From positions 1 to 64,000 of the forward strand of contig NZ_FORA01000003.1 of assembly GCF_900113875.1 (NCBI RefSeq): a DNA stretch of 64,000 bases, read 5' to 3'. Of the stretch, positions 2,769 through 19,903 are shown piece after piece; the stretch's first letter is position 1; each line of letters starts with the position of its first letter. The DNA is from Jannaschia pohangensis (GTDB taxonomy: Bacteria; Pseudomonadota; Alphaproteobacteria; Rhodobacterales; Rhodobacteraceae). The position numbers and the translations under genes are program-made. The notes beneath the pieces are model-generated. The model was not told the origin of the DNA. It saw only the letters and a list, made by a program, of their open reading frames with translations, and did not search any database.

Positions 2769-5700
2769 GGCCATCCTCCTACGGATCCGACGATCTTGAT
2801 GTCCGCCACTGTGCCGGTGCCGGGATTCCACTGATAATGGACCGTTGCCGTGCTTCCGTTGCCGCCCCTTACCGTCAGCTGCATCTTTTGCCAACCATCA
2901 CTCGCCGCAAATCTCGGGTCATTGTTCATGCGCAATAAAACTCGACCACTTGCTGGACTATTCAGCGCAGTCTCCATCGCCATCTGTTCTCGAAGCGTCT
3001 GCGGCTCAGTCCATTGGTCCGGGTTTGCGGTCGAAATATCTAAGTATTCCTCATCATTCGATATATCAGGAATGTAAGGAACTGGCCATCTCGGTTCTTC
3101 AGGTCCACCATTGTGTCCTATCGGCGGGGACTCCCCTTGCCTCGTCCGCCATTCTTCGAGATGGCCGGGAACTTGAGAGATCGCTGCATTGATCTGTCCT
3201 AGCAAGGACATCAAGCCAGAAAAAATGCCCCCCACAGAAGAACGACACGGATCAGTAGCCGCACAAATCGCCGCTCCTCCCGCCGCAGCGGCTCCGGCCA
3301 TACTTCCAAATTGGAGACTCGAACTCAGCCCACTCGGATCGGTCGCATTGAACGGATCGTTCTCCACATAGGCGTAGAGGTTCAGATCTCCCGCCGCGAA
3401 GCCGATCGGGTCCTGTTGCAGGAACTGGCCGAGCGCCGGGTCGTAGTGCCGGGCGCGGTAGTAGATCAGCCCGCTCTCGGCGTCGTGCTCCCGGCCCGTG
3501 TAGCCGTAGCGCGTCGCGTCGGCTTCGGTCCCGGTGACGTAGCTGCGCTGCCCGAAGCTGTCGTACTCGACCTCGGAGGCCACAGCCCCCGTCGCCACGC
3601 TGACCGCAATGGCAATCGAGCCCAGGCGGTTCGCCAGCAGCGCCCGCAGCGAGCCCGACCCGGGCGCCGTCGTCCCCGCGTAGTCCTCGACCTCCAGCGG
3701 CTCGTCCACCCGAGGGCCGTGCAGCCAACGTCGGGCCAAGGTACCACCCTCGAAGTCCATCACCACCTCCGACGCCGTCGGGTCCAGCGACCAGGCGTCG
3801 AGGACGTAGGCCTCGACCGAGCCATCCACCGTCTTCGCGATCCGCCGATCCAGCGCGTCGTAGGCGTAGGTCGCCGTCGTCACACCGTCGGTGTAGCTCA
3901 CCAACCGGTTCTGGCTGTCGTAGCCATAGCTCTCCACCACGCCGTCCGCCTTCGACACCCGCGACACCCGGTTGCCCCGGTCATCGTAGAAGTAGGTGTA
4001 ATCGTCATCCTCGGTCAGCTGGTTGTGCGCGTTCGACACGTGGAGGTCCGACAGATGCGAGGCGAAGCGATTGCCCTCCTCGTCGTAGGCATAGTCCTCG
4101 ACCGGGAGCAGCGCCCCCGACCCCGATCCATCCGCCACGTCCGACCCGCGATCCACCTGCACCAGGCGGTCCAGGCTGTCGTAGGACAGGCGGCGGGATG
4201 CGGAGGGCGTCAGCTCGTCGATGATTGTCGTGAGTTTGCCGTCGGCGGCGTAGCCGTAGTCGAGGTCCAGCACCGGCACGCTTGCCTGCGCATGGGTCAG
4301 CGATGACAGCAGCCCATTCGTGTAACCCATGGTCGACACCCGCCCGGAGGTCGACGTGAACGACGTCCGCCGCCCTTCCCCGTCGTAGCCGAAGGAGAAC
4401 GCCGTGCCCCAAGGCGCCGTCAGGTTCGTCAGACGGCTTTCCGGATCGTAGGCATAGGTTGTCGTCCCGCCCAGGCTGTCCGACATCGACGTGCGCCGCG
4501 AGAGCGCATCGTAGGTGTAGGTGAGCGTGATCTCAGGTTGCGGCCCGACCGTGCCATCCGTCGTCATCGCGACCAGACGATCCCGAACGTCATAAGCCAT
4601 GGTCAGGCGGCTGTCGCCATCGGCAGCTGCAATCAGGTTGCCAACCGGGTCGTAGCCGTAGGTGAGCGTATTGTCGGGCGTCACCACTTGCGTCCGGCGC
4701 GACAGTCCATCGTAGGTGGCGGTTTCGACCTGACCGTTCTCGCGGGTGAGCACGGTCAGGTTGTCGCGTCCATCATAGCTGCGCGCGATCGTGCGGCCCA
4801 GCGGGTCCGTCCGTCCGGTCATCCGGTCAAGCGGATCGTAGGCGAATACCGTCCGTCCCGCGCGCCCGTCGGTCACCGCCAGGATGTTGTCGCGCAGGTC
4901 GTATTCGAACCGTTTCACGAAGCCTTCGGGATCGGTCACCTCGATCATCCGACCGATGTCATCATATACGTAATCGTGCTCGGCACCGGTCCCGTCGATA
5001 TGACGGACCACGTCTCCTGCTTCATCGTAGACGCGCGTGATCAGACCCTCTGCCGGATCGTCGACCGTCACCAGACGCTCCAGCGCATCGTAGGTCATCG
5101 TCGTCACCAGACCGGTCTCATCCGTGATCGTCGCAACATTGCCAGCCGCGTCGTAGGTATAGCGGGTTATACCATCGATCTGAGCGCCATCAGGGCCCGT
5201 AACCTCAACGGTCAGCATCCGGTTCAGATCGTCGAACGTCCGCAAGACCCGCCGCTCCTCCGGCAAGCCCTCGGCTTCGATGACCGTGACCATGTTGCCC
5301 CGCGCATCGTATTCAATGCGCGTGATTGTTCCGTCAGGGTAGGTCATCGACGTCATGTTCTGATCGTCGTCATAGGTATAGCTGGTAGTCCGCCCGTTCT
5401 CGTCGGTGCGCGACGCGAGTTTCCCTTCCTCCGTCAGGACCATGGTTGTGATACCACCTTCGGCATCCACCATTCGGATCAACTCGCCGAACGAGTCGTA
5501 CTCATATGTCGTGCCAAATCCTTCGGAGTCGGTCATCTCGGTCAAGCGCGAGAAAACAGGTTCGTATTCGTAGCGCGTCGTCCGGACAGCCGTTGTCCCA
5601 ACCGCTTCCCTTCGCAACACGACATTGCCGCGAGCATCGTAGGCCATCTCGTCGATCAGGCGTCCCGTGGGCGACCCGGTCGAAGGACGGTCCACACGGG

Positions 5701-8700
5701 TGACAAGATTGGCATCATCCCTGGCAATTCGGGTCTCGCGACCCAACGGGTCGGTCATTCGGACGATGGCGCCGAATGAATTGACTTCCACCTGCGTCTC
5801 CTCACCCCGACGATCCGTCACGGTCGTGATGCGATCCTCGGGCGCGACGACCCGCAGAGTACCGGGCGTGTCGAGACTGGCCAGCCCGAGCGAAGATGCG
5901 ATCTGCATCGAGATGCTCGATCCGTCAGGCAGGGTTGCCCCGCTGAGACGTCCGGTTGCATCAAAGGCATAGCGGGTCTCATTGCCATTCTGATTGGTCG
6001 TCGAGACAAGACGGCCCCGATCGTCGTATTCGAAAGCAACGGTGGCCCCATCCGGCTCGGTTAGCCCGAGCATCGTGGGAATATCGACCTGATCGTCATA
6101 TTCGAACGTCGTGATCCGGCCTGCGTCATCGGTAATTGAGGCCATGCGGCCAAGTGCATCGTAGGCAAAGCTTGTCACGCCGCCGACCTGATCAGTCACC
6201 GTTTCCAGGCGACCATTGAGGCCGTAGGCGAACTCGCGACGGTTGCCCTGCTGATCGACTTCCGCAACCTGCAAGCCCTCAGCGTTGAACAGAACGCGCG
6301 TCCCGTCCGTATAGCGTCGCTCCCAAGTCCCATCGTCCAGCCGTGTCAGAGTCGAAAATTCCCCGTCACCCGAGATAAGTCGACCGGTCAGTGAAGGTTT
6401 TGAGAAGAAGATCGTATTCTGGAACCGCTGCGTCGTCACAGCATCCAGACTTCCGTCACCGTCGAGATCTACGACTTCAAGATCCCCGAAGCCGAACGGG
6501 AGCAGACCCGTCTCGAATGGCGCGAAAGTTCCGTCACCCCTACCCTCATAGACGTGTACGGCTCCACCCGTTGATGCGACGATATCTGGAATGCCGTCTC
6601 CGTTGGCGTCAGCGATGCTGATTGGCATAGCGCTGCTGGCTTGCGGAGGACGCGGCAGACTTCCCAGCGATACCCTGCTCGCCGAGAACAACGACAGCGC
6701 TGACGATGTGCTGTAGAGAATTTCCTCACTGCCATTTCCATCAATATCGATGAGCTTCAGGTACTCACCGAACAGGTTCGGGAACGCGCCCCCCAGATCG
6801 GCATCCGACAGCGTGAAACTACGCTGGCCCGTATTCGCGAGCAGATCAATCCCTCGGACGGTGCGGAACGCGAGGTCGATGTCGCCGTCGCCGTCGAGGT
6901 CACCCGCTTCAAGTTGAATAGCTCCGCCGTCTCCGGAGAACAAACTCCGCTGATGGATTATGGTCGATTCGATCCGTCTGGCTGTGTTGCCCCAATCGAC
7001 AATTATGGCGCGCTGCAAGGAGAAGCGGCCTCCCGCTGTATGTGAGCGAACGACATCTTCAATTCCATCGCTGTCGAGATCCACCACGATGGCATCAAGA
7101 AAGTTCGTTCCGTCACCCACACCCGCACGGTCGAAAGACGCGAAACCACCTCCGGACAGGCCATTGCGATACCCGAATCTGTCTTCAAGTTGGAAACCGA
7201 ACGCGAGATCATTGAACCCATCCATGTCACGGTCAATAACCTCCACCGCGGTAAGGTTCGGTGTCCAACTGCCGGTGTTCGGAACGACATTCGGATCACC
7301 GACTGCCAAAAGCTCAACATCCTCGAACCCCCGCCGTCCAAGATTGCGCAAAAGGCCGACGGATCCGGTCCCACTGTCCGGCCAAACGACATCCGGAAGA
7401 TCGTCGCCGTTTATGTCGCCGATCGCCAGTCGTCCAGGGCCGCGTGCAGGAAACACGAACGGCTCTGGGTCGAACTCTGTCAGGGTCGGCTCGCTCTCGA
7501 ATACCGCGACTGCGTCGTCACTTATGATGGAAAGCGAACGACCTTGTCTGTCCACCACAAGTTTCTGCAACCCCGCGATCGACCAACCCCGGCCGTAAGT
7601 GCTTTCGACTTCGTTCTGAATATATAGCTCGCCATCGTGAGACGCGCCCACAGTTGAGCAGGCATATTTCGCCCGCGTCGTGAAACTGTAAGGATATCGA
7701 CCACTCGTTATCGATTGTGCATCTATGGTGGAAGGCTGGCGAAGGGTCACACGCTCTCCGAGAAGCGCCGGCGCGGACCCGGACGCCAGATCCCTCGGAT
7801 TCCACTGACGGCCGTCCGATACGGTCACTCCGGCCAAATCCAGTTGCGTCATCAACGTCTGCGGAAGCGAAGCACGCGCATCAATCGTAACATCGCCGGC
7901 AACGATCAGAGTAGGATCCGCGGCCGTCGAATGGTACGCAAGCGCAACGGCTTGGCCCTCGTCGAACGCCCGATACCCTGGCAGAACATATGTTTGCTCA
8001 AGGTCGCCTTCGAACGGCGTCAACGTCCGGTTGTGGCCGTCGACCATATCTTCGGATGGGATGCTTGTTGGACGAAGCGGGAGCAGTGAGATCATCGCTC
8101 CCCCGTCGGCAAGGACGACCGACGCCGTAACCGTCGCACCGCCAGCTTCCACAGACCCTTCAGAAACAGGTATGAACCGCGTTCCGCCCGCGCCCATGCG
8201 CCAGACGTCGAGAGCGGCTCCCTCCGCCAGACCGTCCACGTTGTTGGCTGTAACCGCCACGGGAGCATTGAAACGGGCACCCGGCGCGTCGAGCGCGAAG
8301 GTATGGCACGCTTGGACGTCGTCCGGCATCCCTGTCGGCTGGAAGAGCTGCGGCAAGGTGCCAAGACAAACTTCGCCCGCGTAAGCCGCTCCGCTACTAT
8401 CGGTCACACTGTCGGCCGGAAGCGTTGCCCTAATTCCCGCGACAGATGACGTCAGAATAGTCGGGGTACCGGCAACAACGGGCGAGCAACCCTGATTGAG
8501 AGGAACGAGCAGGATTTCAGGATCGATGTCGCGGTCCTGATTCTCGGTTATCTGAACGACACGGGACACTGTAGCATAGCCAGAAGCTCCGCCCGTCGGC
8601 GACACGATGACCTGATCGCTTCTCCCGGTCAGTCCGCCGAAGCGGAATCTTCCATCGGCATCCGAAACCGTATCAAGCGCCGCAGTCTCGATGCGAACCG

Positions 8701-11700
8701 GGACACCCACAACCGGAGTCTCGATCCCAGCCGCAAAATCGACCGCATCCAGCAGCCGACCATTGACCGCCGTCTCGCCCGCATCCGCTGGTATCACCAA
8801 GACAGACACATCGGCCGTGTCGGTCAGGCGTCCGTCCGAAACGGTAACCGTCAGGTCGTAACGTCCCTCCTGCCCGGCTTCGGGCCGGAAGGAGAGTAGA
8901 CCGGTCGCTGCGTCGAAGGACGCGTTCTCGACAAGCGGAAGCGGCGTCACCGTGAATGTCAGCGTGTCCCCTTCGGCATCGAAAGCCGAAACATCGAGAG
9001 ACAGCTTCAGCCCGAGTTCTACCGTATATTCCGCAAGCAACTCACCGAGGATTGGCGCGGTGTTGCGTGCGCCGGCGGACACCGAAATCTCCGCCGTGCT
9101 CTCTAGCGTGCCGTCACTAACCGTGACGGCAATGCGGTAGACGCCTCGGCGGTCGGCCGAGAACCCGGCCGATGAGCCATCATCCAAAGCCACCAATGTG
9201 GGCGTGCTCCCGTCCGGAGCACTGAGAATTTCATAGCTGAAAGTCAATCCCTGTCCATCCGGATCGCTTGATCCGGTGGCGTCCAGAATAACATCGTCGC
9301 CGACGAAAGCCTCGGACGGGCCGGTCAGGGCCGCAACGGGTGCGCGGTTGGGAACATCCAGCGTGGACGTAACACTGTTCGAAGCGATGCCGTCCGAAAC
9401 CGTCAACTCGAAAGTATAGAGCCCCGGGACGTCCGGCTGGAAGGCGGTGACGGCAGCGTCGCCCCCGATGACCACCGAGGTGCTTCCGACCGGCGATGAG
9501 GTATTGGTCCAGCTATAGGTCAGGAAATTACCATCTGGATCCGAAGAGCTCGTTGCGTCGAGAGAAAGTATCTCGCCGACAAAGGCCTGTGCTGGAACAC
9601 TTGCAACAGCAACAGGCGCGGAGTTGGAAACCAATACCGAGATGACGATCGGATCGGCCGCCCAAATGCCGTCATCCACCTGCATCTGGATCAGATACGT
9701 ACCAATTCGGTCCGGGATGAAAGCGACGGTCTCTGCTTCGATCAATTGCTCCGCGAACGCAGTCGCGCTGCCCGCCGGTTTGCTCAGGATTGACCACTGA
9801 AAACGCATTGCGTCGCCGTTCGGATCGACCGCGTAATCGGTCCCTGCCACGGTAATTTCTTCACCACCGACAGCGTCTATGTTGCGCGCTCTTGAAAATT
9901 GAGGTGGCAGATTCCCGTATCCGACCAGAACTGTATCCGGACGTGAAGCCAACGGCCCATCGGTCGCAACGACCTGGAGAACCGCTCCCGCCGCTGCATC
10001 CGAAAGGGTAAGGATTGGATTTGCCGCGGCAGGTGTCGACAGGGCGGCATCTTCACTGCCCATGACGAACCCAGTGACCGACCATTCGAAGTTCGCCGTC
10101 TCCGATGACGCAGCAGCGATCGGAGACACGGCCCCATCGCCACTCCGTAGAAGATCAGGTCCAGCATCGACCGAAGGTCGCGGCGCGCCGACAACGACTG
10201 CCCGAGTCTGCGGCATTGATGAGATCACGCCATCCGAAACAATAAGTTGCACGATATATGTGCCATCGACGTCGGGGGTCAGCGTTGTGGTCGGAGTGGC
10301 AAACGCAGCAAGATCGGCTTGGCTACCGGCAGGGCGATGGATCAGGGCCCACGACCACGTAATCGTATCCCCATCGAAATCATAACTTTGCGATCCATCG
10401 AACGAAAAGGCCTGGCCCGCAGCCGACGTAGAGGCCTCTATGCGCGCCACTGGGGCAATTGGACCCTCGCCGACGACAAGGCGTTGGTAGGTATCTGAGG
10501 GCGTCAAACCATCCGAGATCCGCGCGCGAACAATGTATTCCCCATCCTGGGGCGCCAAGAGATCGAGCGTCCCGTCCTGACGGGTCACCGTAGAACTCGC
10601 AACTCTTCCCGGGGCCGAGATCAAGTCCAGCGTCCCCATCAATCGGTCGCCGTCGATATCTGAACTCGCATAGGGTGACACCCTTGTGCTTGTCGGCAAC
10701 GCACGGCGTTCTGCGAACTGCAAAGCGGCATTTGGCGCAACCTGCCGTCCGCGACGTGGTTCGTAGAAATCCACACTGCGCGCGATAAGCGGCTGCCGTT
10801 GCAGATCCTTACCGATGACGTTCTCTAGCGTGACGGTCAGAGCGGGCGCTTCCCCGAACCGCAACGTTAGATCCGCTACGGAGGGGTCTGGGGAAATCAG
10901 CGCGTCGGTAAGGCTGTCACCATCCCGTTCGATTTCGCGCACGAAATTGAAAAAATCTCTGCGCTTGGACAGATCATAAGCTCTCCCACCAAAAACGAAC
11001 CGGAGGGTGTCGAAGCTCTGCTCGCCGCCACCGTTCACGTCAAAATCCGGAATGACGATATCGCCGGTTTTATCCTCAACCGCGCCAAGATCGAAAACGA
11101 CGCGCGGCCCTCCGTCGTTCGAAAGGTTCCGGTCATAGGATGTCCGGAACCTGAGGCCTTCTTCCGAACCTTCCTGATATGTCGCTGCGACACAGCTGGT
11201 CGACGAAACCAGTCCGGTCGTATCCGTCACCGTGAGACCGAAAACATAGTCGCCGACGACGTCGAACGCCACGTCGACAAACGGCTCCGCAGTGTCTTCA
11301 ATCGTGACGGCACTCCCATCGGGTTTCTTTTCGACCGTCCAAGCATAGCGCAACGCGTCGCCGTCGGGATCGAAGCTGTCGGACCCGTCGAGGGTCAGCC
11401 GATCCATGATCGAAGGTACCCCAACCGCACGCACCCGAGATTGCGGGGGGACGCCTTCGGTTCCGGCAACGATCTCGACCGTGCGCAGCACAACTCCGTC
11501 TGTCACCGCCGCGTCACGTATCTCCGCGGCGGCCCGCCAGGTCCCCGGAACGTCGGCCGTAAAGGCCGGGCGCACGGCGGCTGGGTCCGAGAAATCTGCG
11601 ACACTGACAGCTGGACGGTCGAGCCAGCGCCAGGAAACAGCCAGCTCGTCGAGTTCCAGACCGGCGATCGCCTCGAGGGGATCGAGGTAGACCGGTTTAC

Positions 11701-12136
11701 CTACGGACGCGATCGTGGAGAGGACGGGTACACGACAAGCGGATTGGGGCTCGCACCGACCAAGATGAAAACAGGCATCGAAAGCTTGGGGACCAGACGC
11801 CTTTGTCTTGCGCACGCCGCTGATGTCGAACGTCGCGACGTAGGTGCCGGGACCTCTGCCTTCTACCACCAGGTGACCGGGGGCCACCCTGAACGCTTCT
11901 GAGAAGTCACCGCCGTATTTCGTCAATGTGACGATTTGACCTGTCTGCCCATCGTTCTGGAGCCGCCAGTACGTCGTGTTCTCGCCGCTGACACCGAGAC
12001 TCGTCAGGTTGTCGGCACGCACAACACCGGCAGGAAACGCGAGCAGAAAGAGGACCAACAGTAGAGGAAGCTTCAGAGGCGACGCGGAACACACTGGCAA
12101 GAACTCGCGCAAAGCGCGCCCTGTCGAATTAAACAT
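2765..12136 (-). CDS. Giant Sec-secreted Rhs/YD-repeat protein with PKD-like and FG-GAP repeats and a C-terminal toxin tip
   Basis: About 3123 residues. ATG 12136 is chosen because it starts a clear signal peptide (positive N-end, hydrophobic LPLLLVLFLLAFPAG, VRA|D cleavage near 41); the open frame upstream has no such signal. Order of parts: Ig/PKD/cadherin-like repeats at about residues 210-1120 (recurring DPDGD and Y.F.LTVSDG); a carboxypeptidase-regulatory-like module at about 1120-1200; a region with GRGWSIAGL near 1500; FG-GAP/VCBS repeats at about 1570-1910 (DINGDDLPD, DLDGDGDID, DANGDGIPD); more than 20 YD repeats at about 1935-2780; the Rhs core ending DPSGL at 2937; and a 186-residue variable tip with GHNGGP, GWQKM and VHYQWNPGTG. 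YD repeats form a shell that holds the tip. Tip activity is not identified. An immunity candidate follows with a 4-nt overlap. Confidence 0.87.
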   Translation of the reverse strand: MFNSTGRALREFLPVCSASPLKLPLLLVLFLLAFPAGVVRADNLTSLGVSGENTTYWRLQNDGQTGQIVTLTKYGGDFSEAFRVAPGHLVVEGRGPGTYVATFDISGVRKTKASGPQAFDACFHLGRCEPQSACRVPVLSTIASVGKPVYLDPLEAIAGLELDELAVSWRWLDRPAVSVADFSDPAAVRPAFTADVPGTWRAAAEIRDAAVTDGVVLRTVEIVAGTEGVPPQSRVRAVGVPSIMDRLTLDGSDSFDPDGDALRYAWTVEKKPDGSAVTIEDTAEPFVDVAFDVVGDYVFGLTVTDTTGLVSSTSCVAATYQEGSEEGLRFRTSYDRNLSNDGGPRVVFDLGAVEDKTGDIVIPDFDVNGGGEQSFDTLRFVFGGRAYDLSKRRDFFNFVREIERDGDSLTDALISPDPSVADLTLRFGEAPALTVTLENVIGKDLQRQPLIARSVDFYEPRRGRQVAPNAALQFAERRALPTSTRVSPYASSDIDGDRLMGTLDLISAPGRVASSTVTRQDGTLDLLAPQDGEYIVRARISDGLTPSDTYQRLVVGEGPIAPVARIEASTSAAGQAFSFDGSQSYDFDGDTITWSWALIHRPAGSQADLAAFATPTTTLTPDVDGTYIVQLIVSDGVISSMPQTRAVVVGAPRPSVDAGPDLLRSGDGAVSPIAAASSETANFEWSVTGFVMGSEDAALSTPAAANPILTLSDAAAGAVLQVVATDGPLASRPDTVLVGYGNLPPQFSRARNIDAVGGEEITVAGTDYAVDPNGDAMRFQWSILSKPAGSATAFAEQLIEAETVAFIPDRIGTYLIQMQVDDGIWAADPIVISVLVSNSAPVAVASVPAQAFVGEILSLDATSSSDPDGNFLTYSWTNTSSPVGSTSVVIGGDAAVTAFQPDVPGLYTFELTVSDGIASNSVTSTLDVPNRAPVAALTGPSEAFVGDDVILDATGSSDPDGQGLTFSYEILSAPDGSTPTLVALDDGSSAGFSADRRGVYRIAVTVSDGTLESTAEISVSAGARNTAPILGELLAEYTVELGLKLSLDVSAFDAEGDTLTFTVTPLPLVENASFDAATGLLSFRPEAGQEGRYDLTVTVSDGRLTDTADVSVLVIPADAGETAVNGRLLDAVDFAAGIETPVVGVPVRIETAALDTVSDADGRFRFGGLTGRSDQVIVSPTGGASGYATVSRVVQITENQDRDIDPEILLVPLNQGCSPVVAGTPTILTSSVAGIRATLPADSVTDSSGAAYAGEVCLGTLPQLFQPTGMPDDVQACHTFALDAPGARFNAPVAVTANNVDGLAEGAALDVWRMGAGGTRFIPVSEGSVEAGGATVTASVVLADGGAMISLLPLRPTSIPSEDMVDGHNRTLTPFEGDLEQTYVLPGYRAFDEGQAVALAYHSTAADPTLIVAGDVTIDARASLPQTLMTQLDLAGVTVSDGRQWNPRDLASGSAPALLGERVTLRQPSTIDAQSITSGRYPYSFTTRAKYACSTVGASHDGELYIQNEVESTYGRGWSIAGLQKLVVDRQGRSLSIISDDAVAVFESEPTLTEFDPEPFVFPARGPGRLAIGDINGDDLPDVVWPDSGTGSVGLLRNLGRRGFEDVELLAVGDPNVVPNTGSWTPNLTAVEVIDRDMDGFNDLAFGFQLEDRFGYRNGLSGGGFASFDRAGVGDGTNFLDAIVVDLDSDGIEDVVRSHTAGGRFSLQRAIIVDWGNTARRIESTIIHQRSLFSGDGGAIQLEAGDLDGDGDIDLAFRTVRGIDLLANTGQRSFTLSDADLGGAFPNLFGEYLKLIDIDGNGSEEILYSTSSALSLFSASRVSLGSLPRPPQASSAMPISIADANGDGIPDIVASTGGAVHVYEGRGDGTFAPFETGLLPFGFGDLEVVDLDGDGSLDAVTTQRFQNTIFFSKPSLTGRLISGDGEFSTLTRLDDGTWERRYTDGTRVLFNAEGLQVAEVDQQGNRREFAYGLNGRLETVTDQVGGVTSFAYDALGRMASITDDAGRITTFEYDDQVDIPTMLGLTEPDGATVAFEYDDRGRLVSTTNQNGNETRYAFDATGRLSGATLPDGSSISMQIASSLGLASLDTPGTLRVVAPEDRITTVTDRRGEETQVEVNSFGAIVRMTDPLGRETRIARDDANLVTRVDRPSTGSPTGRLIDEMAYDARGNVVLRREAVGTTAVRTTRYEYEPVFSRLTEMTDSEGFGTTYEYDSFGELIRMVDAEGGITTMVLTEEGKLASRTDENGRTTSYTYDDDQNMTSMTYPDGTITRIEYDARGNMVTVIEAEGLPEERRVLRTFDDLNRMLTVEVTGPDGAQIDGITRYTYDAAGNVATITDETGLVTTMTYDALERLVTVDDPAEGLITRVYDEAGDVVRHIDGTGAEHDYVYDDIGRMIEVTDPEGFVKRFEYDLRDNILAVTDGRAGRTVFAYDPLDRMTGRTDPLGRTIARSYDGRDNLTVLTRENGQVETATYDGLSRRTQVVTPDNTLTYGYDPVGNLIAAADGDSRLTMAYDVRDRLVAMTTDGTVGPQPEITLTYTYDALSRRTSMSDSLGGTTTYAYDPESRLTNLTAPWGTAFSFGYDGEGRRTSFTSTSGRVSTMGYTNGLLSSLTHAQASVPVLDLDYGYAADGKLTTIIDELTPSASRRLSYDSLDRLVQVDRGSDVADGSGSGALLPVEDYAYDEEGNRFASHLSDLHVSNAHNQLTEDDDYTYFYDDRGNRVSRVSKADGVVESYGYDSQNRLVSYTDGVTTATYAYDALDRRIAKTVDGSVEAYVLDAWSLDPTASEVVMDFEGGTLARRWLHGPRVDEPLEVEDYAGTTAPGSGSLRALLANRLGSIAIAVSVATGAVASEVEYDSFGQRSYVTGTEADATRYGYTGREHDAESGLIYYRARHYDPALGQFLQQDPIGFAAGDLNLYAYVENDPFNATDPSGLSSSLQFGSMAGAAAAGGAAICAATDPCRSSVGGIFSGLMSLLGQINAAISQVPGHLEEWRTRQGESPPIGHNGGPEEPRWPVPYIPDISNDEEYLDISTANPDQWTEPQTLREQMAMETALNSPASGRVLLRMNNDPRFAASDGWQKMQLTVRGGNGSTATVHYQWNPGTGTVADIKIVGSVGGWP
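3324..3738 (-). repeat. Rhs core direct repeat, copy in the full-length rhs gene
   Basis: Partner of 1961-2375. It covers the end of the Rhs core. Recombination between the two copies would exchange the present C-terminal tip and immunity gene for the Hint-type tip. Confidence 0.9.
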
Positions 12137-12295
12137 CTTGATTTCCCGTGGCCATGCAATCCTCACAGCGAAGTTACCCCGCGATATTCGGAAGGCAATA
12201 CTCTTTTGCCGCAAGTGGACGGGTGAGACCCTCCGGCTGCATATTGTGAGCAACTGGTCTGCAAGGCCTTCAGAACATGTCTCATAACGAACATC

Positions 12296-12774
12296 ATGGG
12301 GCTCAGAACCCCTCAACCGGCCAATATCACCGCCGCGACCTCCTCCGGCGGCGGCTTCGCAGGCCTGCACGTGGCCGAGTACGGAGGGGATGCGGTCCTC
12401 CCTGCCCGGGACGCGAATCGGGGCATCCGCATCCCGACCCCGGATGTAGCCACGCCGCTCGACACGCGGCCGGGCTTCGGCCGGACCCTGTCGGACCTGG
12501 GCCTCCCGGTCTCGACCGGTCCGGCCTTTCGGCCGATTTCGTCACCGGTCTGACGGCCTATCTCGGGACGACGCTTGTGAACGCGCATAGCCGCACGACC
12601 TTAGGGACGACACAGATCAAAGCCGCCGACCTGCGCGCCCTGCCGTGCCCCTCCCCCCATGTTCTCTCCAATCTCGGGGCATGGGCCGCGCGGCAGTCTT
12701 CGTGGCCGGATGACACCGCTCTCGACGATCGTCTTGACGATCTGCTGGAAGGCCCGGCCGCCCGCGACCTGTGA
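12296..12774 (+). pseudogene. Decayed adenine-specific DNA methyltransferase (Eco57I-like) C-terminal fragment
   Basis: Two frames hold consecutive pieces of one family. The frame from 12296 gives GIRIPTPDVATPLDTRPGFG and then SDLGLPVSTGP, the latter resembling the L-G...V-S-T-G-P motif of Eco57I-type methylases. The frame from about 12541 gives FVTGLTAYLGTTLVNAH followed by TTQIKAADLRALP, resembling the late 'LNSTLVN..FR...G.TQVNATDLR' block. The material between these motifs is missing and the frame changes, so an internal deletion plus frameshift is inferred. The catalytic NPPY region is absent. This is probably the remnant of a restriction-modification or phage-defence gene lost during island decay. 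Family assignment is from memory of motifs. Confidence 0.55.
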
Positions 12775-13159: not shown

Positions 13160-14494
13160 TCAGGGCGCGGGGCCATCGTCGTGGTTCGGCAGAGTCGGCC
13201 CTTCGACTTCGGTTCCGACCCTCTTGGGACGTGGGATCGGCGACATCGCAGCCAGGGCGGCGAGGGAACGGCGGACCTTGTCGAAGCCGCCTCCGGCCGC
13301 CCATCCGGCCAAGGCATGTGTCACCGCGTCGTATCCGGCGACATGGGCGATCCGGTCAAAGAGCCGTTCCGCGAGTCGGCGCAGGGTGAGCCCGGCGGAG
13401 AGGACGGGCGCGGCCGGAACGCGAAGGATCGCGGCGGGGTCGACGAGATCGGATGGCCGCGTGATGTCTGGGCCGTAGACCCGGGCATTCTCCGCCGCCC
13501 GCGCGGTCCAGGCGGCGCGCAGCCGCTCCAGTGCCGCGGCGAGGACCTGCTCCCGCGCCGCGAGGACCATGGGATCGGGCGGCGTCGGGGCCGCGTCGCA
13601 GAGCGTCCCGTGGAAGATCAGGGGCGTCCCTTCAGCCCCATCCTTCGGGGCCAGCACGATGGCGTCGTCGCGCAGCCCGCCGACCTGCCAACCGAGATCG
13701 TCCAGCATCGGGGCGAGCCCGTCGAGCAGACCCGCCCGGTCCGTCGCCCCGCCCCGGGCGATGGACTTGGCCGCGAGAAGCAATCGCGGCCGCGCGTCCT
13801 CCTGGTCGAGGCGCGCGCCCTCTCTTGGGTCGAGTCGCCCGTCTTCGCGATCATCCCCCTGCCCGCGTCGCGCTTCGATCCAGCGCCCGAGCGCCGCGGC
13901 GCGCCGCTCGAGCCACGACGGTCCGCGGACAGCGGCGGCGTTGCGGGGATCGCGCGGGTCGTGCCAGCTGAAGGCCCCGTTGAGCGTGTCCTCGAAGGCG
14001 GCCCAGGCCACCCGGCTCGCGGCGACGGGCGGGTGCGGGTTGAAGGCCCGGGGAATGCGCCGACCGGAAGCCGTCGGGACCATCACGCAGGCCGGGACAA
14101 GGATATTGATCTCCAGCCGCCCGGTATGGAGATGGGTACTCACGAGCACCGGCGGACGTGCCTCGGGGGCGAATCCGGAATGGGCCGTTTCCATCCACAA
14201 CTCGATCGCCGCGTCGATCCTGCGGAGAGTCTCCCGGTCGCGTCGACGCCATTTCTCAATATCGACTTCGTTTTTCGCAAAGCTGAGCGTCGCGCATCTG
14301 TAGCGCCGTTCCGTCTCCAATATGTCGATCGTCCGGGCGACGATCCGGGGATCACCGCGCAGGATCTCCGGAGCCGGATCGCGGGCGATGCGGTCACGCC
14401 GCCCGCCGATCACCACGGGGACGGTCTCGTCGAGAAGGTAGCCAATCACGCGGCGCGCGGTGCCGCCGGTATGGCGCGACCAGACGAGGATCAC
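13160..14494 (-). CDS. Relaxase / mobilisation nuclease (MobA/VirD2-like)
   Basis: 444 residues from a GTG start that overlaps the mobC stop (GTGA). The N-terminus has RHTGGTARRVIGYLLD, then PEILRGDP, a SFAKNEVD strand, and the histidine-containing block HLHTGRLEINILVPA followed by RAFNPHPP, which I read as the metal-binding H-x-H and downstream part of a plasmid relaxase. A catalytic tyrosine would be expected near the N-terminus; the best candidate is Y19 in VIGYLLD. The C-terminal half is alanine/arginine-rich and variable. It would nick oriT on one strand to start conjugal transfer and remain covalently attached. No type IV secretion genes are visible, so the element is mobilisable rather than self-transmissible within this window. 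Confidence 0.72.
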   Translation of the reverse strand: MILVWSRHTGGTARRVIGYLLDETVPVVIGGRRDRIARDPAPEILRGDPRIVARTIDILETERRYRCATLSFAKNEVDIEKWRRRDRETLRRIDAAIELWMETAHSGFAPEARPPVLVSTHLHTGRLEINILVPACVMVPTASGRRIPRAFNPHPPVAASRVAWAAFEDTLNGAFSWHDPRDPRNAAAVRGPSWLERRAAALGRWIEARRGQGDDREDGRLDPREGARLDQEDARPRLLLAAKSIARGGATDRAGLLDGLAPMLDDLGWQVGGLRDDAIVLAPKDGAEGTPLIFHGTLCDAAPTPPDPMVLAAREQVLAAALERLRAAWTARAAENARVYGPDITRPSDLVDPAAILRVPAAPVLSAGLTLRRLAERLFDRIAHVAGYDAVTHALAGWAAGGGFDKVRRSLAALAAMSPIPRPKRVGTEVEGPTLPNHDDGPAP

Positions 14495-14832
14495 CGGCCC
14501 CGCCCCGATGTGGCGTCCAGCGCCCGGATCAAGCGGTCGTCGATACGGTCGAGCGCGCCGCAGATGTGCAGCGTCTGGACCGGTGTGGTCCCTTCGATGA
14601 CCGACGCGAGCAGGTCAAGGATGCCGTCCATGGCAAGGCGCATCTCGTCGATCAGCTCCCCCGCGTCGGGAGTGGACGAGACCGGCGTGTCGAGCGCGGC
14701 CTCCGCGACGTAGCGCGAGCGCGACACGGCCCGCGCCGCCGCCGCCGCGCCGATGGCGGCCCATTCGCGGTCCGTCAGATGGATGCGCCGCGGCCTTGTC
14801 GGGACCGCACTTCTCGGGCGTCGTCTCGTCAT
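14491..14832 (-). CDS. MobC-like relaxosome accessory protein
   Basis: 113 residues with a basic N-terminus (MTRRRPRSAVPTRPRR) and a ribbon-helix-helix-like segment IHLTDREWAAIGAAAAARAV with SRSRYVAEAAL, characteristic of MobC proteins that open oriT DNA for the relaxase. The C-terminal part is a helical dimerisation-like region. It overlaps the relaxase GTG by 4 nt, which indicates translational coupling. It is placed next to the likely oriT spacer at 14833-15235. Confidence 0.7.
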   Translation of the reverse strand: MTRRRPRSAVPTRPRRIHLTDREWAAIGAAAAARAVSRSRYVAEAALDTPVSSTPDAGELIDEMRLAMDGILDLLASVIEGTTPVQTLHICGALDRIDDRLIRALDATSGRGR

Positions 14833-15235: not shown

Positions 15236-15442
15236 TCAGTCTTCGTCTCGCAGCTCCAGGGCAGCATCGTTGTCCCGCACGTCATATCCCTGCCCGCGCA
15301 GGTGCCGCGTCAAGATGCGGCGGATCATCTCCGGTCGCGAGGGATCGTCATCAGCCCCCGCGATCAGGTCATCGAGCGCGTCGAGCATCGTCTGATGAAC
15401 GCGCAGCATGACCTGGTGAGTGTTTCTCTTCGGCGGTGCCAT
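15236..15442 (-). CDS. Ribbon-helix-helix DNA-binding protein
   Basis: 68 residues starting MAPPKRNTHQVMLRVHQTML. The basic strand QVMLRV followed by two helices (LDALDDLIAGADDD, SRPEMIRRILTRHLRGQG) is an Arc/MetJ-type RHH. The acidic C-terminus (AALELRDED) is typical of small plasmid regulators and antitoxins. AGGAAT lies about 10 nt upstream of the ATG. No toxin gene is adjacent, so a role as repressor of the divergent gene set starting at 15608 or in plasmid functions is more likely than a toxin-antitoxin pair. Confidence 0.6.
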   Translation of the reverse strand: MAPPKRNTHQVMLRVHQTMLDALDDLIAGADDDPSRPEMIRRILTRHLRGQGYDVRDNDAALELRDED

Positions 15443-15506
15443 GATCGGGATTCCTGTTTCGACACGTGGCAGAACAAGCGTCGAAGACCAGACGCTCAGT
15501 TTCGTG

Positions 15507-15534
15507 TTGACATTGTGATACTGATATTGCAATA
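15507..15534 (+). promoter_or_regulatory. Candidate promoter/operator between divergent RHH gene and island operon
   Basis: TTGACA at 15507-15512 is a perfect -35 hexamer in an AT-rich stretch, but the matching -10 is weak (around 15530). The perfect palindrome TATTGCAATA (15525-15534) overlaps that -10 region and could be an operator for the divergently encoded RHH protein. Confidence 0.35.
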
Positions 15535-15607
15535 GGTAAGCGGGCGATGCAGGGGCGGCAACCCCCGCACCGTCCTGACCACAACCGATCCAGCTAGGAG
15601 ATCGACC

Positions 15608-16138
15608 ATGGCTGATGCCGTCCTTACCATCCTCTTCGCGGGGGATGCACCCCGTTCCCATTCCATTCCGTGCCTCGTCTTCGGGCGCGCAGTCCAGGCC
15701 GTGGAGCGGCTGCTCCAGGCCGACACGCGTGCGGCCGGTCTGCCCTACGGCGACCCGGCATATGGCCGCGCGCCGGGGCATGCCGATCGCCAGCTCGTCC
15801 GGGCGATCGACGCGACCGCACGCGCCGCCGGGCATGCCGACGACGACCGCTACCGCGCCGCCGCGGAGATTATGCATGCGATGCTGATCTCGACCGACCC
15901 GGGTCATCTGCGCGACGGCCTCGCCGAGATGCGCCGGTTCGAGCTGCACGCCTACATCCTCGCCGACCGGACGATCCGGTTGTCGATCCTTCGCGCCGCG
16001 GGCGTCATGGAGAGCCTCCATCGCACCTGGACGACAGACAGGGATATCGAAGTCGACGATCTCGCGGCCGCGCACGATATCCAGGGCGAGGATGCCTGGG
16101 ATCTGTTCGCTGATCCGACGGCGTTGATGCCCGGCTGA
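15608..16138 (+). CDS. Unknown protein, first gene of the nuclease/AAA-protease set
   Basis: 176 residues starting MADAVLTILFAGDAPRSHSI, preceded by AGGAG 8 nt upstream. It is mostly helical in appearance with an acidic C-terminus (DREIEVDD-like; DIQGEDAWDLFADP). No motif or family is recognised. It lies in the same direction as the nuclease and protease genes, with a 125-bp gap before the nuclease reading frame, and has the same GC-rich codon use. Function unknown. Confidence 0.6.
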   Translation: MADAVLTILFAGDAPRSHSIPCLVFGRAVQAVERLLQADTRAAGLPYGDPAYGRAPGHADRQLVRAIDATARAAGHADDDRYRAAAEIMHAMLISTDPGHLRDGLAEMRRFELHAYILADRTIRLSILRAAGVMESLHRTWTTDRDIEVDDLAAAHDIQGEDAWDLFADPTALMPG

Positions 16139-16263
16139 CCGCTCCCGCCGACAAGGGCCGCGCAAAGCGGTCCGCGCCAGGGCAGGCCCGGGATCTCGCC
16201 TCGTCCGACACGCAACCCCGGTAGACGAGCCCGGTCCTGCATTGTCCGCACCATGACGGTCGG

Positions 16264-16890
16264 GTGCGTTCGCGCGCGCCCGTCCCGCCTGCCCCGTCCA
16301 CCCGACGATCCCCAACCAGGAGACAGCCTTTCGCCCATCCCACCTCCTCGTCTTTCCAACTCCCGCTCTTCGAACACCTCGCGCCCCGGACGAGCGTCCC
16401 GCCACCGGGCGCGGCCTACGACGACCTCGCCGCCTACCCGCACGTCTCGACAGCGGTCCTCGCCCATCACGCTTGCCTGATCGGCCAGGCCGGCGCGGCC
16501 GTCGTCGACAGCGTCCTGCTCGCCCGGGGCATTCCCGTGCTCCCGGCCCCCGACGGGCAGTCCTACGATCGGCTCGCCCTGATCCGCGGCGATCCCGTCA
16601 CCGTCCAAATCAAGACCACCTCGCATCCCGGTGCCGACGGCCGGTACCTTTGGAATATCGCCTGCGGCTACCGCGGTTCTCCCCGCGGCCGGCGGCCCTA
16701 TGCGCGGCACGCCTTCGGGCTCCTGGCATGCGTTGTTCTTCCGGTCTCCGCGGTCTTGTTCGTCGCCCCGGGCGCGACCCGGGTCACCCTGCATCCACGC
16801 GATGTCCCCGGCCTCATACGCGATCCGCTTGCCAGCTTGCGTGACGCACTCGACGCCATCGGCATCGACGCGCCGCAGCCCCCTCCGTGA
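16264..16890 (+). CDS. Putative PD-(D/E)XK-fold nuclease-like protein
   Basis: 208 residues if the GTG at 16264 is used. The true start may be near 16330, where AGGAG precedes the conserved-looking SSSFQLPLFEHLAP but no ATG follows. The core has a helix with QAGAAVVDSVLLARGIPVLP, then YDRLALIRG and VTVQIKTT. The D followed by a strand with Q-x-K matches the D...(D/E/Q)xK signature of group-I-intron-type PD-(D/E)XK domains. A later RHAFGLLACVVL resembles the final structural strand. It may bind or cut DNA. The stop overlaps a possible GTG of the next gene (GTGA). Confidence 0.5.
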   Translation: MRSRAPVPPAPSTRRSPTRRQPFAHPTSSSFQLPLFEHLAPRTSVPPPGAAYDDLAAYPHVSTAVLAHHACLIGQAGAAVVDSVLLARGIPVLPAPDGQSYDRLALIRGDPVTVQIKTTSHPGADGRYLWNIACGYRGSPRGRRPYARHAFGLLACVVLPVSAVLFVAPGATRVTLHPRDVPGLIRDPLASLRDALDAIGIDAPQPPP

Positions 16891-16949
16891 ACAACGCGCC
16901 CGACATCGCCCTTCGCCCCTCCCTGTCCCTTCGCCCTCCGGAGCCCAAC

Positions 16950-19250
16950 ATGACGATTCCCCATCCCACGCCCGATACCGCCTCCCCCACGTCCGACACT
17001 ACCGACGATTTCTCACAGACCGTCCCGACCAATCCTCGGCCCATCACCGGCGACGCCCTGCGCGACGCCGTCCTCCGCCGCTATATGGACCGACGCCGCC
17101 GCGCCGCGGCGGCGAAGATGGAGGACGACCCGGGCTCGGCTCCCAGGCAGGCACCGATCGGCCATCCGATCGCGCTCGCTTTCCTGGCGCGTCTCGCCCG
17201 GACGATCGGCGAGTTGCCCGATCCGGCCCTGGTGGCGACGGAGGGACGGGTGCTGCTCCTGCGGACCGACGACCCGGCGGATCGCACCCTACCCGCGCTG
17301 ATGTCCCGGGAGGTGCTGCCCACCCTCGCCGCTCTCCTCGGTCGACCGGCACCCCGCTCCGAACTCGTAATCGCGAACGCGTGGAACAAGGTCGGCAACG
17401 CGGAATGGTCCATCGTCACCGAGGATCTCACCCGCATCATGGCCGCCGGTCAGCTCGCCATCATCGCCTGCAACCCCGCCATGGCTGTTCCCGACGAGAT
17501 CGCGGACCTGCTTGATGTCGATGTCTCCGTTCCTGGCCTGTCCCCGGACGACATCATCGCAATTATGGATGCTGTCGAACGCCCCGGAAGGGACGACCCC
17601 GACCTTCTCGGCCTCCTGCCGTCGGCAGAGCGCCTCGCGGCCATCGGGCCTCTGCATCTGGCTTATGCCTGGGCGGCCACCGACGAGGACGGCGCGGCGG
17701 AGGTCGCGCGCCGCCTCGCGCGGGCGGCCGACCGGATAAAGGACCGGGAGCCGGAGCAGACCAGCGATCAGCCCGAGACCGCGAATGACGACGCCGAGGA
17801 CAATGACATTCCCGCGCTCCGCCTCGCCGATCTCCGCGGCCTCGGTCCCGCCGGCGACCTGCTCCGCCGCCTCGTCGACGACGTCGACGACTGGCGCGAC
17901 GGCCACCTGGACTGGCGCGACGTCGGGGCCTCGGTCCTCCTCTCCGGCCCGCCCGGCTGTGGCAAGAGCAGCGCTGCGGCCGCCATCGCGGGCGAGATCG
18001 GCGGGCCTGTCGTCGACCTGTCCTACACGCGGATGCAGGCGGCCGGACACATGGGAGAGGCGCTTCGCGCCCTGGACAAGGCAGTGGCGCAAGCCAGGTC
18101 GGAGGCCCCCTGCGTCGTCTTGGTCGACGAGGTCGATGACCTCGCGGATCGCGGTGGTCACGGTGCCAACGCAAACTCGCACAACCGCAGTTACATGCGC
18201 AGCATCGTCAATGCCTACCTGACCCGGCTGACGCAGCTCGCCGACGCGCCCGGCGTGGTCGTGGTGCTGGCGACCAACCACCCCCACCTGGTCGATCCGG
18301 CCCTGATCCGGGCGGGCCGCGTCGACCACCACCTCCACATCGGCCTGCCGGACCGCGCTGCGCTTGAAGAAATCCTCGCCGATGCGCTCGGCGATCATGC
18401 AGCACCGGCACTGGTCGATGCACCGGCCTGGTCCATGGCGCTCGATGCCCTCACGGGTGGATCGGGTGCGGACGCCGCCAAACTCGTCCGCGATGCCGTC
18501 GCCGCCGCGCGGACGCGCGTGCGGCGGCAGCGGACCGGCCGGACGCGCGCACAGAACGGTCAGCCGGCACCCTTCGCCGTCACGCCGAACGACCTCGCGG
18601 TCGCGGCCTCGGCCTCGAGATCGGGCACGTCCGTCCCGCCCGATCTGCACCGCCTCGCGATCCACGAAGCGGGCCACATCGTCGCCGCCCATGCTCTTGG
18701 TCGCCCCAGACCCTCCCGCGCGTGGATCGGGCCGCAGGGCGCGGGCGTGACCGCCCCGGTCGAGAGGACTTATACGGCGGACACGGCGCGGGCGGAGCTG
18801 GCCTGCCTGCTCGCCGGCATGGAGGCCGAGCGCCTGATCCTCGGCACCGTCTCCTCTGGCGCAGGCGCGGGAGCCTTGAACAGCGATCTGGCGAAGGCCA
18901 CGGCGATGGCCGCCCGGATCGCTTCGGAATGGCATCTGGAGACCGAAGACGCGCCGCCGGTCTGGCGCAGCGCCGAGAGCTATGCCGCGTCGCCCGACTG
19001 GGCGCACCGCCGGACCGCCGAGGCGGTCGAACGGCTGCTGACCGACGCGCGGGCCCGCTGCGTGGACCTCCTGCGGGAGTGGCGCGCCATTGTGGCGCGC
19101 GTCGCCGGTGCCCTCCTTCGGGAGCGGGAACTGAACGGCGACGCGATCGCGCGCCTCCTCGACGGACCGTTTCCCGCCTCGGTGCCGCCGCACGGGTCGG
19201 AGCATGTCTCCACACCGGATGAATCGCGCATCGACGGAGGCCCGCAATGA
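16950..19250 (+). CDS. Soluble AAA+ ATPase fused to M41 (FtsH-type) zinc metalloprotease
   Basis: 766 residues from ATG 16950, chosen for the CGGAG 6-7 nt upstream; an in-frame GTG at 16887 touches the previous stop but lacks a ribosome site. There is no transmembrane segment, unlike FtsH. The N-terminal 300 residues are a unique helical region. Then come Walker A GPPGCGKS (about 333), Walker B VVLVDEVDD (about 390), a sensor-like ATNHPHLVDPALIRAGRVD with an arginine finger, and a C-terminal M41 peptidase with HEAGH (about 572) and the third zinc ligand in LNSDLAKAT (about 646). All key residues are present, so an active ATP-dependent protease is expected. Its substrate is unknown. It overlaps the next gene by 4 nt. 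Confidence 0.82.
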   Translation: MTIPHPTPDTASPTSDTTDDFSQTVPTNPRPITGDALRDAVLRRYMDRRRRAAAAKMEDDPGSAPRQAPIGHPIALAFLARLARTIGELPDPALVATEGRVLLLRTDDPADRTLPALMSREVLPTLAALLGRPAPRSELVIANAWNKVGNAEWSIVTEDLTRIMAAGQLAIIACNPAMAVPDEIADLLDVDVSVPGLSPDDIIAIMDAVERPGRDDPDLLGLLPSAERLAAIGPLHLAYAWAATDEDGAAEVARRLARAADRIKDREPEQTSDQPETANDDAEDNDIPALRLADLRGLGPAGDLLRRLVDDVDDWRDGHLDWRDVGASVLLSGPPGCGKSSAAAAIAGEIGGPVVDLSYTRMQAAGHMGEALRALDKAVAQARSEAPCVVLVDEVDDLADRGGHGANANSHNRSYMRSIVNAYLTRLTQLADAPGVVVVLATNHPHLVDPALIRAGRVDHHLHIGLPDRAALEEILADALGDHAAPALVDAPAWSMALDALTGGSGADAAKLVRDAVAAARTRVRRQRTGRTRAQNGQPAPFAVTPNDLAVAASASRSGTSVPPDLHRLAIHEAGHIVAAHALGRPRPSRAWIGPQGAGVTAPVERTYTADTARAELACLLAGMEAERLILGTVSSGAGAGALNSDLAKATAMAARIASEWHLETEDAPPVWRSAESYAASPDWAHRRTAEAVERLLTDARARCVDLLREWRAIVARVAGALLRERELNGDAIARLLDGPFPASVPPHGSEHVSTPDESRIDGGPQ

Positions 19251-19594
19251 CCCCCTCCCCGCCGGTCTCCGAGGCCATTCAACGCCGCTGCTGCGCGCGG
19301 ATCCCCACCCGCCGCGCGTGGCTGGCGAACTTCGGAGACGAGACGGAGGACGGGGAAAGACGAGAGGAACTGACCCATGCGATCCTGACGCGGCATGTCG
19401 AGCCCCTCGCGTCGAGTGGCCCGACGAGCCGGGAAGATCTGACAGCGCAGCTCCACGTTCACTGGGTGGAGCATGGGCCCCGCGGGCGCGACGACGATGC
19501 CTACGCCGTCGATGACGCAGAGCCGTATACGCACCCGGACGCAGATCATGTCCGGCCGCTTCAAGAATCCCAGACGCGTGGCAACCCGCTATGA
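19247..19594 (+). CDS. Small unknown protein coupled to AAA+/M41 protease
   Basis: 115 residues starting MTPSPPVSEAIQRRCCARIP. The ATG overlaps the protease stop (ATGA), so the two are translationally coupled. The C-terminal half is acidic and histidine-containing (HWVEHGPRGRDDDAYAVDDA). No family recognised. It could be an adaptor or regulator of the protease, which is inferred from coupling only. Confidence 0.55.
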   Translation: MTPSPPVSEAIQRRCCARIPTRRAWLANFGDETEDGERREELTHAILTRHVEPLASSGPTSREDLTAQLHVHWVEHGPRGRDDDAYAVDDAEPYTHPDADHVRPLQESQTRGNPL

Positions 19595-19827: not shown

Positions 19828-19903
19828 TGGTGCCGCTGAAGGGACTCGAACCCCCGACCCCATCATTACGAATGACGTGCTCTACCAGCTGAGCTACAGC
19901 GGC
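19828..19903 (-). tRNA. tRNA-Thr (anticodon CGU), CCA encoded
   Basis: 76 nt with a complete cloverleaf. The acceptor GCCGCTG pairs with CAGCGGC, the D-arm is GCTC...GAGC, the anticodon stem CGTCA/TGATG carries loop TTCGTAA (anticodon CGT) and the T-arm loop is TTCGAGT. ACCA is encoded at the 3' end. The 3' end faces the accessory region, so this gene is the probable attachment site of the island. T-rich stretches directly after the CCA could end transcription. Confidence 0.96.

Follow-up and report, generated by a model that had tools for sequence, protein, structure and literature searches.

The closest described counterparts of the genes considered here come from several separate fields. 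FtsH carries an AAA+ module, Walker A and B motifs, HEAGH and a distal Asp in one M41 protease chain. The homing endonuclease I-Ssp6803I, together with the PDDEXK_5 group I intron-associated endonucleases, has the PD-(D/E)XK fold and a D + QxK motif, while T5orf172/MUG113 proteins belong to the GIY-YIG type. IetAS is a defence system made of an AAA ATPase and a subtilisin-like protease, and the leaders of SymE/SymR and RSF1010/R1162 have a hairpin, a linker and GGAG..AUGGCU. We describe a gene cassette from Jannaschia pohangensis in which likenesses to all of these are found together. It lies in a stretch of 64,000 nucleotides (positions 1 to 64,000 of contig NZ_FORA01000003.1, here called the window), and consists of a gene for a 68-aa ribbon-helix-helix (RHH) regulator (15236..15442, - strand) and, divergent from it on the + strand, gene A (15608..16138; P0001, 176 aa), gene B (16264..16890; P0002, 208 aa) and gene C (16950..19250; P0003, 766 aa).

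Each likeness comes with differences. P0003 has all of the listed FtsH features in one chain, but cassette C proteins have no strong N-terminal membrane helix, their N-terminus of about 290 aa is divergent, and they are encoded in an operon with a nuclease on mobile DNA. P0002 is predicted to share the fold and the D + QxK motif of I-Ssp6803I and PDDEXK_5, whereas no intron was seen at the cassette, the alpha-1 Glu is lost in the window protein, and A and C recur as partners. At other loci an alternative gene B shows the Y..KxGxS..R...E...H pattern of T5orf172/MUG113 proteins, but with a Cys-rich, zinc-finger-like region before it, and in an operon slot shared with the PD-(D/E)XK type. The cassette leaders have the hairpin, a CUGACCACAA-like linker and GGAG..AUGGCU; they differ from the SymE/SymR and RSF1010/R1162 leaders in scoring below Rfam gathering thresholds, in that their antisense RNA is hypothetical, and in the proteins controlled. 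Like IetAS, the cassette links an AAA+ ATPase with a protease, and IetA models match the AAA part of P0003 only; unlike IetAS, P0003 is one chain with M41 and no subtilisin, and has a nuclease partner. PADLOC 2.0.0 gave only generic AAA models on C (IetA, TRIP13 and mads_8); neither A nor B had a match at E ≤ 1. No description of the gene set was found in the open-licence papers searched, and Pfam and NCBIfam name domains only. As far as these tools reach, the parts are of known kinds and the arrangement is undescribed.

The order RHH (divergent)-A-B-C is conserved as a recurrent module in mobile DNA of Rhodobacterales. The comparison is based on 57 loci that contain gene B and were fetched with wide flanks: 29 of the 34 places found for the GIY-YIG type, 9 of the 15 found for the PD-(D/E)XK type, four from the same genus and 15 from plasmids, the last tally covering only the loci opened among the matching records listed. 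A tenth PD-(D/E)XK place (L108) was fetched and has no cassette. Several near-copies are counted among the 57 (L143/L145, L103/L104, L120/L123/L124, L110/L113 and L048/L053). The same gene order in dozens of loci is beyond chance. Among 394 genomes of the family, a PD-(D/E)XK gene B is found in 12 at E ≤ 1e-3 (in six below 1e-40), and the GIY-YIG type in 26. The home genome itself holds a second cassette (L004; G000:C15:449398-452102), in which RHH, A, B and C are all found and C is 45% identical to P0003.

The sequence-only reading had joined a nuclease-like protein and a soluble protease of the FtsH type in one system carried by mobile DNA, and this coupling is supported by the fold model described below and by co-occurrence. 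Searching 194 genomes (including its own) with P0003, B lies directly upstream at 16 of the 17 listed matches better than E = 1e-42. The exception is L042 in genome G015, which has A and C without B; a nuclease-like upstream open reading frame (ORF) seen there by eye was considered as a third nuclease type and judged to lie outside the cassette. Of the next four matches (5e-42 to 6e-41), L054-L056 are without the partners and L053 has them. For seven more distant plasmid AAA/M41 genes (L129-L134 and L136, from Neorhizobium, Bosea, Azospirillum, Rhizobium, Pseudomonas, Roseinatronobacter and Rhodovastum), the models of RHH, A and B matched nothing within flanks of 5-6 kb. In two of them, L130 (Bosea) and L132 (Rhizobium), a metallophosphoesterase gene follows the soluble AAA/M41 gene, perhaps forming another protease-linked operon. 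The cassette was not found in the phage and viral collections, where part of the search used single proteins and reached close relatives only. P0003 has no relative in the genome-contig collection, in which a GIY-YIG protein gave one locus.

The same comparison corrects the membership of the system. The coordinates, order and shared strand of the four + strand genes and the divergent RHH gene are as the sequence-only reading gave them, and genes A, B and C stand as members. That reading had counted as a member the 115-aa ORF (19247..19594, +), which overlaps C by the ATGA at 19247-19250; this ORF is accessory, with a single homologue among the searched loci (L044, 8856-9173), and is rejected as a core gene. 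It matched no family in the Pfam, NCBIfam and PADLOC scans. The RHH gene, conversely, is core, and a structured leader RNA had been overlooked.

The slot of gene B is occupied by two types of nuclease, predicted to have unrelated folds. Across the 57 loci B is GIY-YIG-like in 41 and PD-(D/E)XK in 16. The GIY-YIG type is a Cys-rich protein with a GIY-YIG-like C-terminal domain, as seen in an alignment of 12 of the 41 in which Y202, R226 and E257 are kept throughout. T5orf172 (Pfam) is matched by 4 of these 12 (best E = 1.6e-4), and some plasmid records name such proteins ‘GIY-YIG nuclease family protein’. In the tree built from 43 C proteins, the nuclease label requires six changes, compared to 13 for shuffled labels, and three of the six are forced by well-supported branches. 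From this tree the nuclease type is clustered, yet has been swapped more than once. Because the nuclease fold varies while RHH, A and C stay steadier, we suggest that B is an exchangeable effector and the other three a control frame. The sample was collected mostly through gene B, and losses of B are therefore under-counted.

The window protein P0002 is classed as a PD-(D/E)XK nuclease by its predicted fold. Alone it scores below threshold against PDDEXK_5 (Pfam, E = 0.041), and this family is matched at E ≤ 0.1 by 6 of the 9 alignment members, including the window's own (best 7.5e-6). An AlphaFold2 model made from 11 sequences has a mean predicted local distance difference test score (pLDDT) of 76.5 and a predicted template modelling score of 0.67. 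Its only Protein Data Bank (PDB) matches at E ≤ 0.001 using Foldseek are three chains of 2ost, the homing endonuclease I-Ssp6803I (best 1.5e-6), followed by a SPARDA nuclease (1.1e-3) and Holliday-junction resolvases (2.8e-3). The model thus agrees with the resemblance to PD-(D/E)XK nucleases that had been read from the sequence. The predicted catalytic residues D102, Q115 and K117 are invariant in all 16 PD-(D/E)XK gene B proteins. The alpha-1 Glu, a feature of the Hjc-like subgroup of this fold, is present in 14 of the 16; the window copy has Ala78 in its place, and its paralogue at L004 also has Ala.

Gene C encodes a protein with Pfam AAA (E = 1.3e-26) and Peptidase_M41 (E = 3.4e-10) domains, both above the gathering score. 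The motifs GPPGCGKS, VLVDEVD, HEAGH and NSDLAKAT are those expected of an active AAA+/M41 enzyme, and the Walker A and B motifs, HEAGH and distal Asp previously picked out in P0003 are all present. HExxH is found in all 43 full-length C proteins (42 by pattern, plus the HEIGH of L125). A GTG at 16887 is an alternative start, giving 787 aa and a GTGA overlap with gene B. In the first 320 aa of P0003 the maximum 19-residue Kyte-Doolittle hydropathy is 1.47, compared to 2.1-2.5 in five canonical-like FtsH proteins, and 11 of 44 cassette C proteins peak above 1.6, with a maximum of 1.81. By this simple scan there is no strong helix, in line with the earlier description of an FtsH-type protease that has lost its membrane anchor. 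The N-terminal region of about 290 aa is divergent. Besides the cassette C proteins, the home genome has one canonical FtsH-like match (L003).

A full-length gene C is present at 43 of the 57 loci. It is split into two ORFs at L050 and L053 and interrupted at L128, and at L118 the contig ends, so that its absence there is not a biological one. Lon-type AAA ATPases stand in the place of C at L114 (5276-7311), L115 (4841-7002) and L121 (8543-9142); at the first two, a separate upstream gene resembles the N-terminal region of C. NCBIfam lon is matched over the AAA part only at L114 (1e-23) and L115 (4e-26), L121 being assigned by its similarity to both, and family scans of the L114 and L115 proteins found no protease domain.

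Gene A is identified by hidden Markov model (HMM) in 54 of the 57 loci, and an ORF occupies its position in 56, including L038 and L039, where it is unmatched. Identity to the window copy is 12-21% in a 45-row alignment, except for L004 (34%), and the gene is fast-evolving. There are three A sequence groups; comparing their profiles links two of them (probability 94 and E = 1e-7 for the single comparison) and attaches the third only weakly. An AlphaFold2 model from 34 sequences (pLDDT 85) is all-alpha with seven helices, and has no PDB match at E ≤ 0.001. Only L128 has B with no ORF in the A position, and there B is truncated. At L193, on the other hand, RHH and two A-like ORFs occur without B or C. 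Since A is found without B but, in the 57 loci, intact B is never found without an ORF in the A position, we suggest that A restrains B. The gene order would be compatible with a type II toxin-antitoxin system. At L193 (2811-4233; G105:C11) the two A-like ORFs are followed by a mobilization-type gene (sub-threshold Mob_Pre), and this may be an orphan, antitoxin-like remnant.

We prefer a reading in which the nuclease of a mobile element is held by a repressor, a leader, protein A and an AAA+ protease, and is used in defence or in competition between elements; we rate it at somewhat short of an even chance. Repression of the operon would fall to the RHH protein. The leader hairpin, possibly together with an antisense RNA, would limit or balance the translation of A. 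A would hold or present B and so restrain it. Upon a trigger, for example an incoming phage or rival element, C would act on A (or on the A-B complex) and free B, which would then cut foreign or host DNA, so that the carrier element is protected or stabilized. The system as a whole may serve defence, plasmid maintenance or regulated proteolysis, as the sequence-only reading put it. A swappable nuclease under steady control genes suggests an undescribed way to restrain a dangerous nuclease. If this is true, the cassette is a compact test case for a lethal nuclease restrained by an AAA+ protease, and the two nuclease folds beneath related control genes are natural swap experiments.

Several observations weigh against this reading of a restrained nuclease. 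C is truncated at L119, L122 and L140, absent at L127, L141, L142 and L144 while RHH-A-B persists, and replaced by the Lon-type ATPases at L114, L115 and L121, and because of this the proteolytic activity of C would not always be required. As no protease domain was found in the Lon-type replacements, the essential act of C may be unfolding rather than proteolysis. It is a guess that A is what C acts on. Because its alpha-1 Glu is replaced by Ala, the window copy of B may be impaired or weakened. The assignment of the other B proteins to GIY-YIG relies on the weak Pfam matches and record annotation described above, and only three of the six changes of nuclease type are forced by well-supported branches.

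The main rival differs in what C does. It makes C a safety device, with A as the adaptor that delivers B for degradation by the AAA+ protease; the nuclease would become active when proteolysis is relieved. The same anatomy fits, as a small helical A could serve as an adaptor, and a related protease is retained beneath changing nucleases. There is precedent in restriction alleviation, where ClpXP destroys HsdR. The window leader also weakly matches the antisense RNA model of SymE, a toxin that, according to PMC1891008, is degraded by Lon. However, keeping RHH-A-B without an adjacent C, as four loci do, should be harmful if C were the sole restraint, and for an adaptor whose AAA partner domain changes slowly, the very rapid divergence of A would be less expected. 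We consider destruction of B by C to be unlikely.

The preferred reading, in which C frees B, also gives parts to the repressor and the leader. The RHH protein, for which a 17-member alignment was made, scores 16.8 bits against Pfam RHH_1 (cut-off 20.5, hence sub-threshold), and a divergent RHH gene is found at 46 of the 57 loci. Between it and gene A is an AT-rich promoter-like stretch (15505..15540, +) with TTGACA at 15507-15512 and the perfect palindrome TATTGCAATA at 15525-15534. A palindromic operator candidate had been proposed from the sequence; the palindrome exists and stays a candidate, but no dyad is common to most of the 46 loci. A consensus promoter scan found no promoter for the operon stretch or for an antisense RNA.

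The conserved, divergent RHH gene would also suit an ordinary regulatory or maintenance operon. C would then process proteins of the element, the RHH repressor for example, with the nuclease as a bystander. In conjugative elements a repressor can be under the control of a metalloprotease, as when ImmA cleaves ImmR. Against this, B is replaced in place by another fold rather than lost, and a bystander should drop out more often, an objection to be read with the gathering of the sample mostly through B, which hides losses of B. C, moreover, is sometimes gone while RHH-A-B remains. We regard such an operon as very improbable.

Between the promoter-like stretch and the first start codon, the 46 loci with an RHH match, in which alone leaders were sought, have a hairpin, a CUGACCACAACGAUC-type linker and AGGAGAUC before AUGGCU. 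In the window this hairpin (15542..15575, +) lies in the 5′ untranslated region of gene A. Compared to dinucleotide shuffles, 36 of the 46 leader hairpins have z ≤ -2, with a mean of -3.41 (34 of 45, mean -3.22, in a first run without L107), while three control stretches of equal length from the same loci have means of -0.41, -0.13 and -0.03, with 4, 1 and 4 at z ≤ -2. The hairpin of the window itself is weak (z of -1.1 and -1.5). A second hairpin around the Shine-Dalgarno sequence and AUG was rejected on thermodynamic grounds, none of the 45 leaders reaching z ≤ -2 (mean z of -0.16). The stems are diverse in sequence, with at least three standard pair types at each of ten positions from the loop in 45 sequences, pairing being given by construction since each sequence was taken in its own minimum-energy fold; the same 45 sequences have 29 different loops. 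RNAalifold on a MAFFT alignment of the leaders returned zero pairs and hence no alignment-based covariation result; structure was assessed one sequence at a time, and for this reason our leader model R1 is a sequence-only model.

A stem that is kept while its letters and loop vary would fit a leader controlled by an antisense RNA. With cmscan two Rfam families are hit by the window leader, symR on the - strand at 41.6 bits (gathering 61) and Plasmid_R1162 on the + strand at 34.2 bits (gathering 55), and the L115 leader matches R1162 at 41.9 bits against the same threshold of 55. The leaders of L045, L120 and L144 match neither at E ≤ 0.5, and no leader match reached the gathering threshold in 7 loci. 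A hypothetical cis-antisense RNA of the SymR/R1162 kind would lie opposite the leader and the gene A start codon (15539..15613, -). Conserved codons of gene A, seen by eye only, possibly serve as its -10 element. As every score falls short of its curated threshold and the promoter scan on the antisense side was negative, this RNA is a lead. In the home genome the two cassettes match model R1 strongly (E = 6e-15 and 4e-9), the next match being at 0.019. The model matches 15 of 198 family genomes, and 16 of the 21 places are known cassettes. Of the other places, those in G105:C11 and G065:C31 precede A-like ORFs, G025:C53 is among ordinary genes, and the rest are in G113 and G229. Window positions 15534-15613 and 45 further loci thus present a hairpin leader resembling symR/R1162 ahead of a protein family unrelated to SymE, which makes it a candidate leader RNA of that kind.

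Taken further, the preferred reading would define a new class of immunity or competition systems of mobile elements. It would have an AAA+ protein, usually fused to M41, as steady sensor and actuator, fast-evolving helical A as tether, a plug-in nuclease swapped between two unrelated folds three to six times in the sampled tree, and a cis-antisense leader with diversified loops, so that coexisting copies ignore one another. We hold this fuller picture to be doubtful.

The mobile setting of the window cassette can be outlined from comparison with six genomes of the same genus, similarity to which ends at the 3′ end of a tRNA-Thr gene (19828..19903, -), at 19828-19829. The sequence that lies past tRNA-Thr in G006 is found in the home genome on contig C6, ending at 1328287. 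Some 11 kb beyond that point lies a copy of the 26-bp tRNA-Thr 3′ end (C6, 1339588-1339613) in the same orientation as the one designated attR in the window (19828..19853), followed by a gene for a 406-aa tyrosine integrase that matches Pfam Arm-DNA-bind_3, Phage_int_M and Phage_integrase, all above cut-off. The cassette appears to lie at the attR end of a tRNA-Thr integrative element split over two contigs. Contig C7 begins at base 1 of the window, and its join to C6 is one that we infer. Elsewhere, a serine recombinase is encoded downstream of the cassette in 21 of 59 loci examined (the one example scanned matches Pfam Resolvase and Recombinase), and relaxases of the P0006 family are nearby in 6 of the 59, namely the window and five others. 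Because these backbones differ (a tRNA-Thr element with a tyrosine integrase, serine-recombinase neighbours and plasmids), the cassette passes between them like cargo. It could serve to mark mobile elements of alphaproteobacteria, the cargo of which now often carries the annotation ‘hypothetical protein’ or ‘AAA family ATPase’.

These neighbours also bear on a further explanation, that B is a homing- or transfer-type endonuclease cutting empty target sites or the DNA of rivals, and that RHH, leader and protease set when it is expressed as the element excises or transfers. Homing enzymes occur in both nuclease folds, the best PDB match of B is the homing endonuclease I-Ssp6803I, the annotation of two relatives on plasmids reads group I intron-associated endonuclease, and serine recombinase and relaxase neighbours are frequent. 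The cargo-like joining to differing mobility backbones argues in the other direction, and neither an intron nor a fixed insertion site came to light, although there was no systematic search for either. An element endonuclease of this kind seems to us quite unlikely; a restrained nuclease carried as cargo is the reading that we prefer.

Other genes of the element, and one cluster at another locus, were noted in passing. Next to the cassette are a NikA/MobC-like mobilization accessory protein (14491..14832, -; Pfam NikA-like, 24.5 bits, cut-off 27) and a relaxase-like protein (13160..14494, -; NCBIfam relax_MbeA_E1, E = 2e-4, 20.7 bits, cut-off 500). An ORF at 12277-12774 had been called a dead methylase; library scans, the only check made, gave 0 Pfam or NCBIfam matches at E ≤ 1, and the name is not upheld. 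Near the cassette of Paracoccus jeotgali, sub-threshold matches to the small RNAs ar14 and CcsR1 cluster beside a DUF1127 gene (L144:9473-9852). The roughly 11 kb before the attL copy (L168; G000:C6:1328287-1339588) hold ordinary-looking genes that are not beside tRNA-Thr in G006. In the other half of the element, L168:13357-19649 (G000:C6) contains type II secretion or pseudopilin-like genes, one assigned by Pfam (T2SSG) and the rest by eye. In the window, positions 2765-12370 of the same element hold a gene for a 3201-aa protein that, read from its sequence, is RHS-repeat-like.

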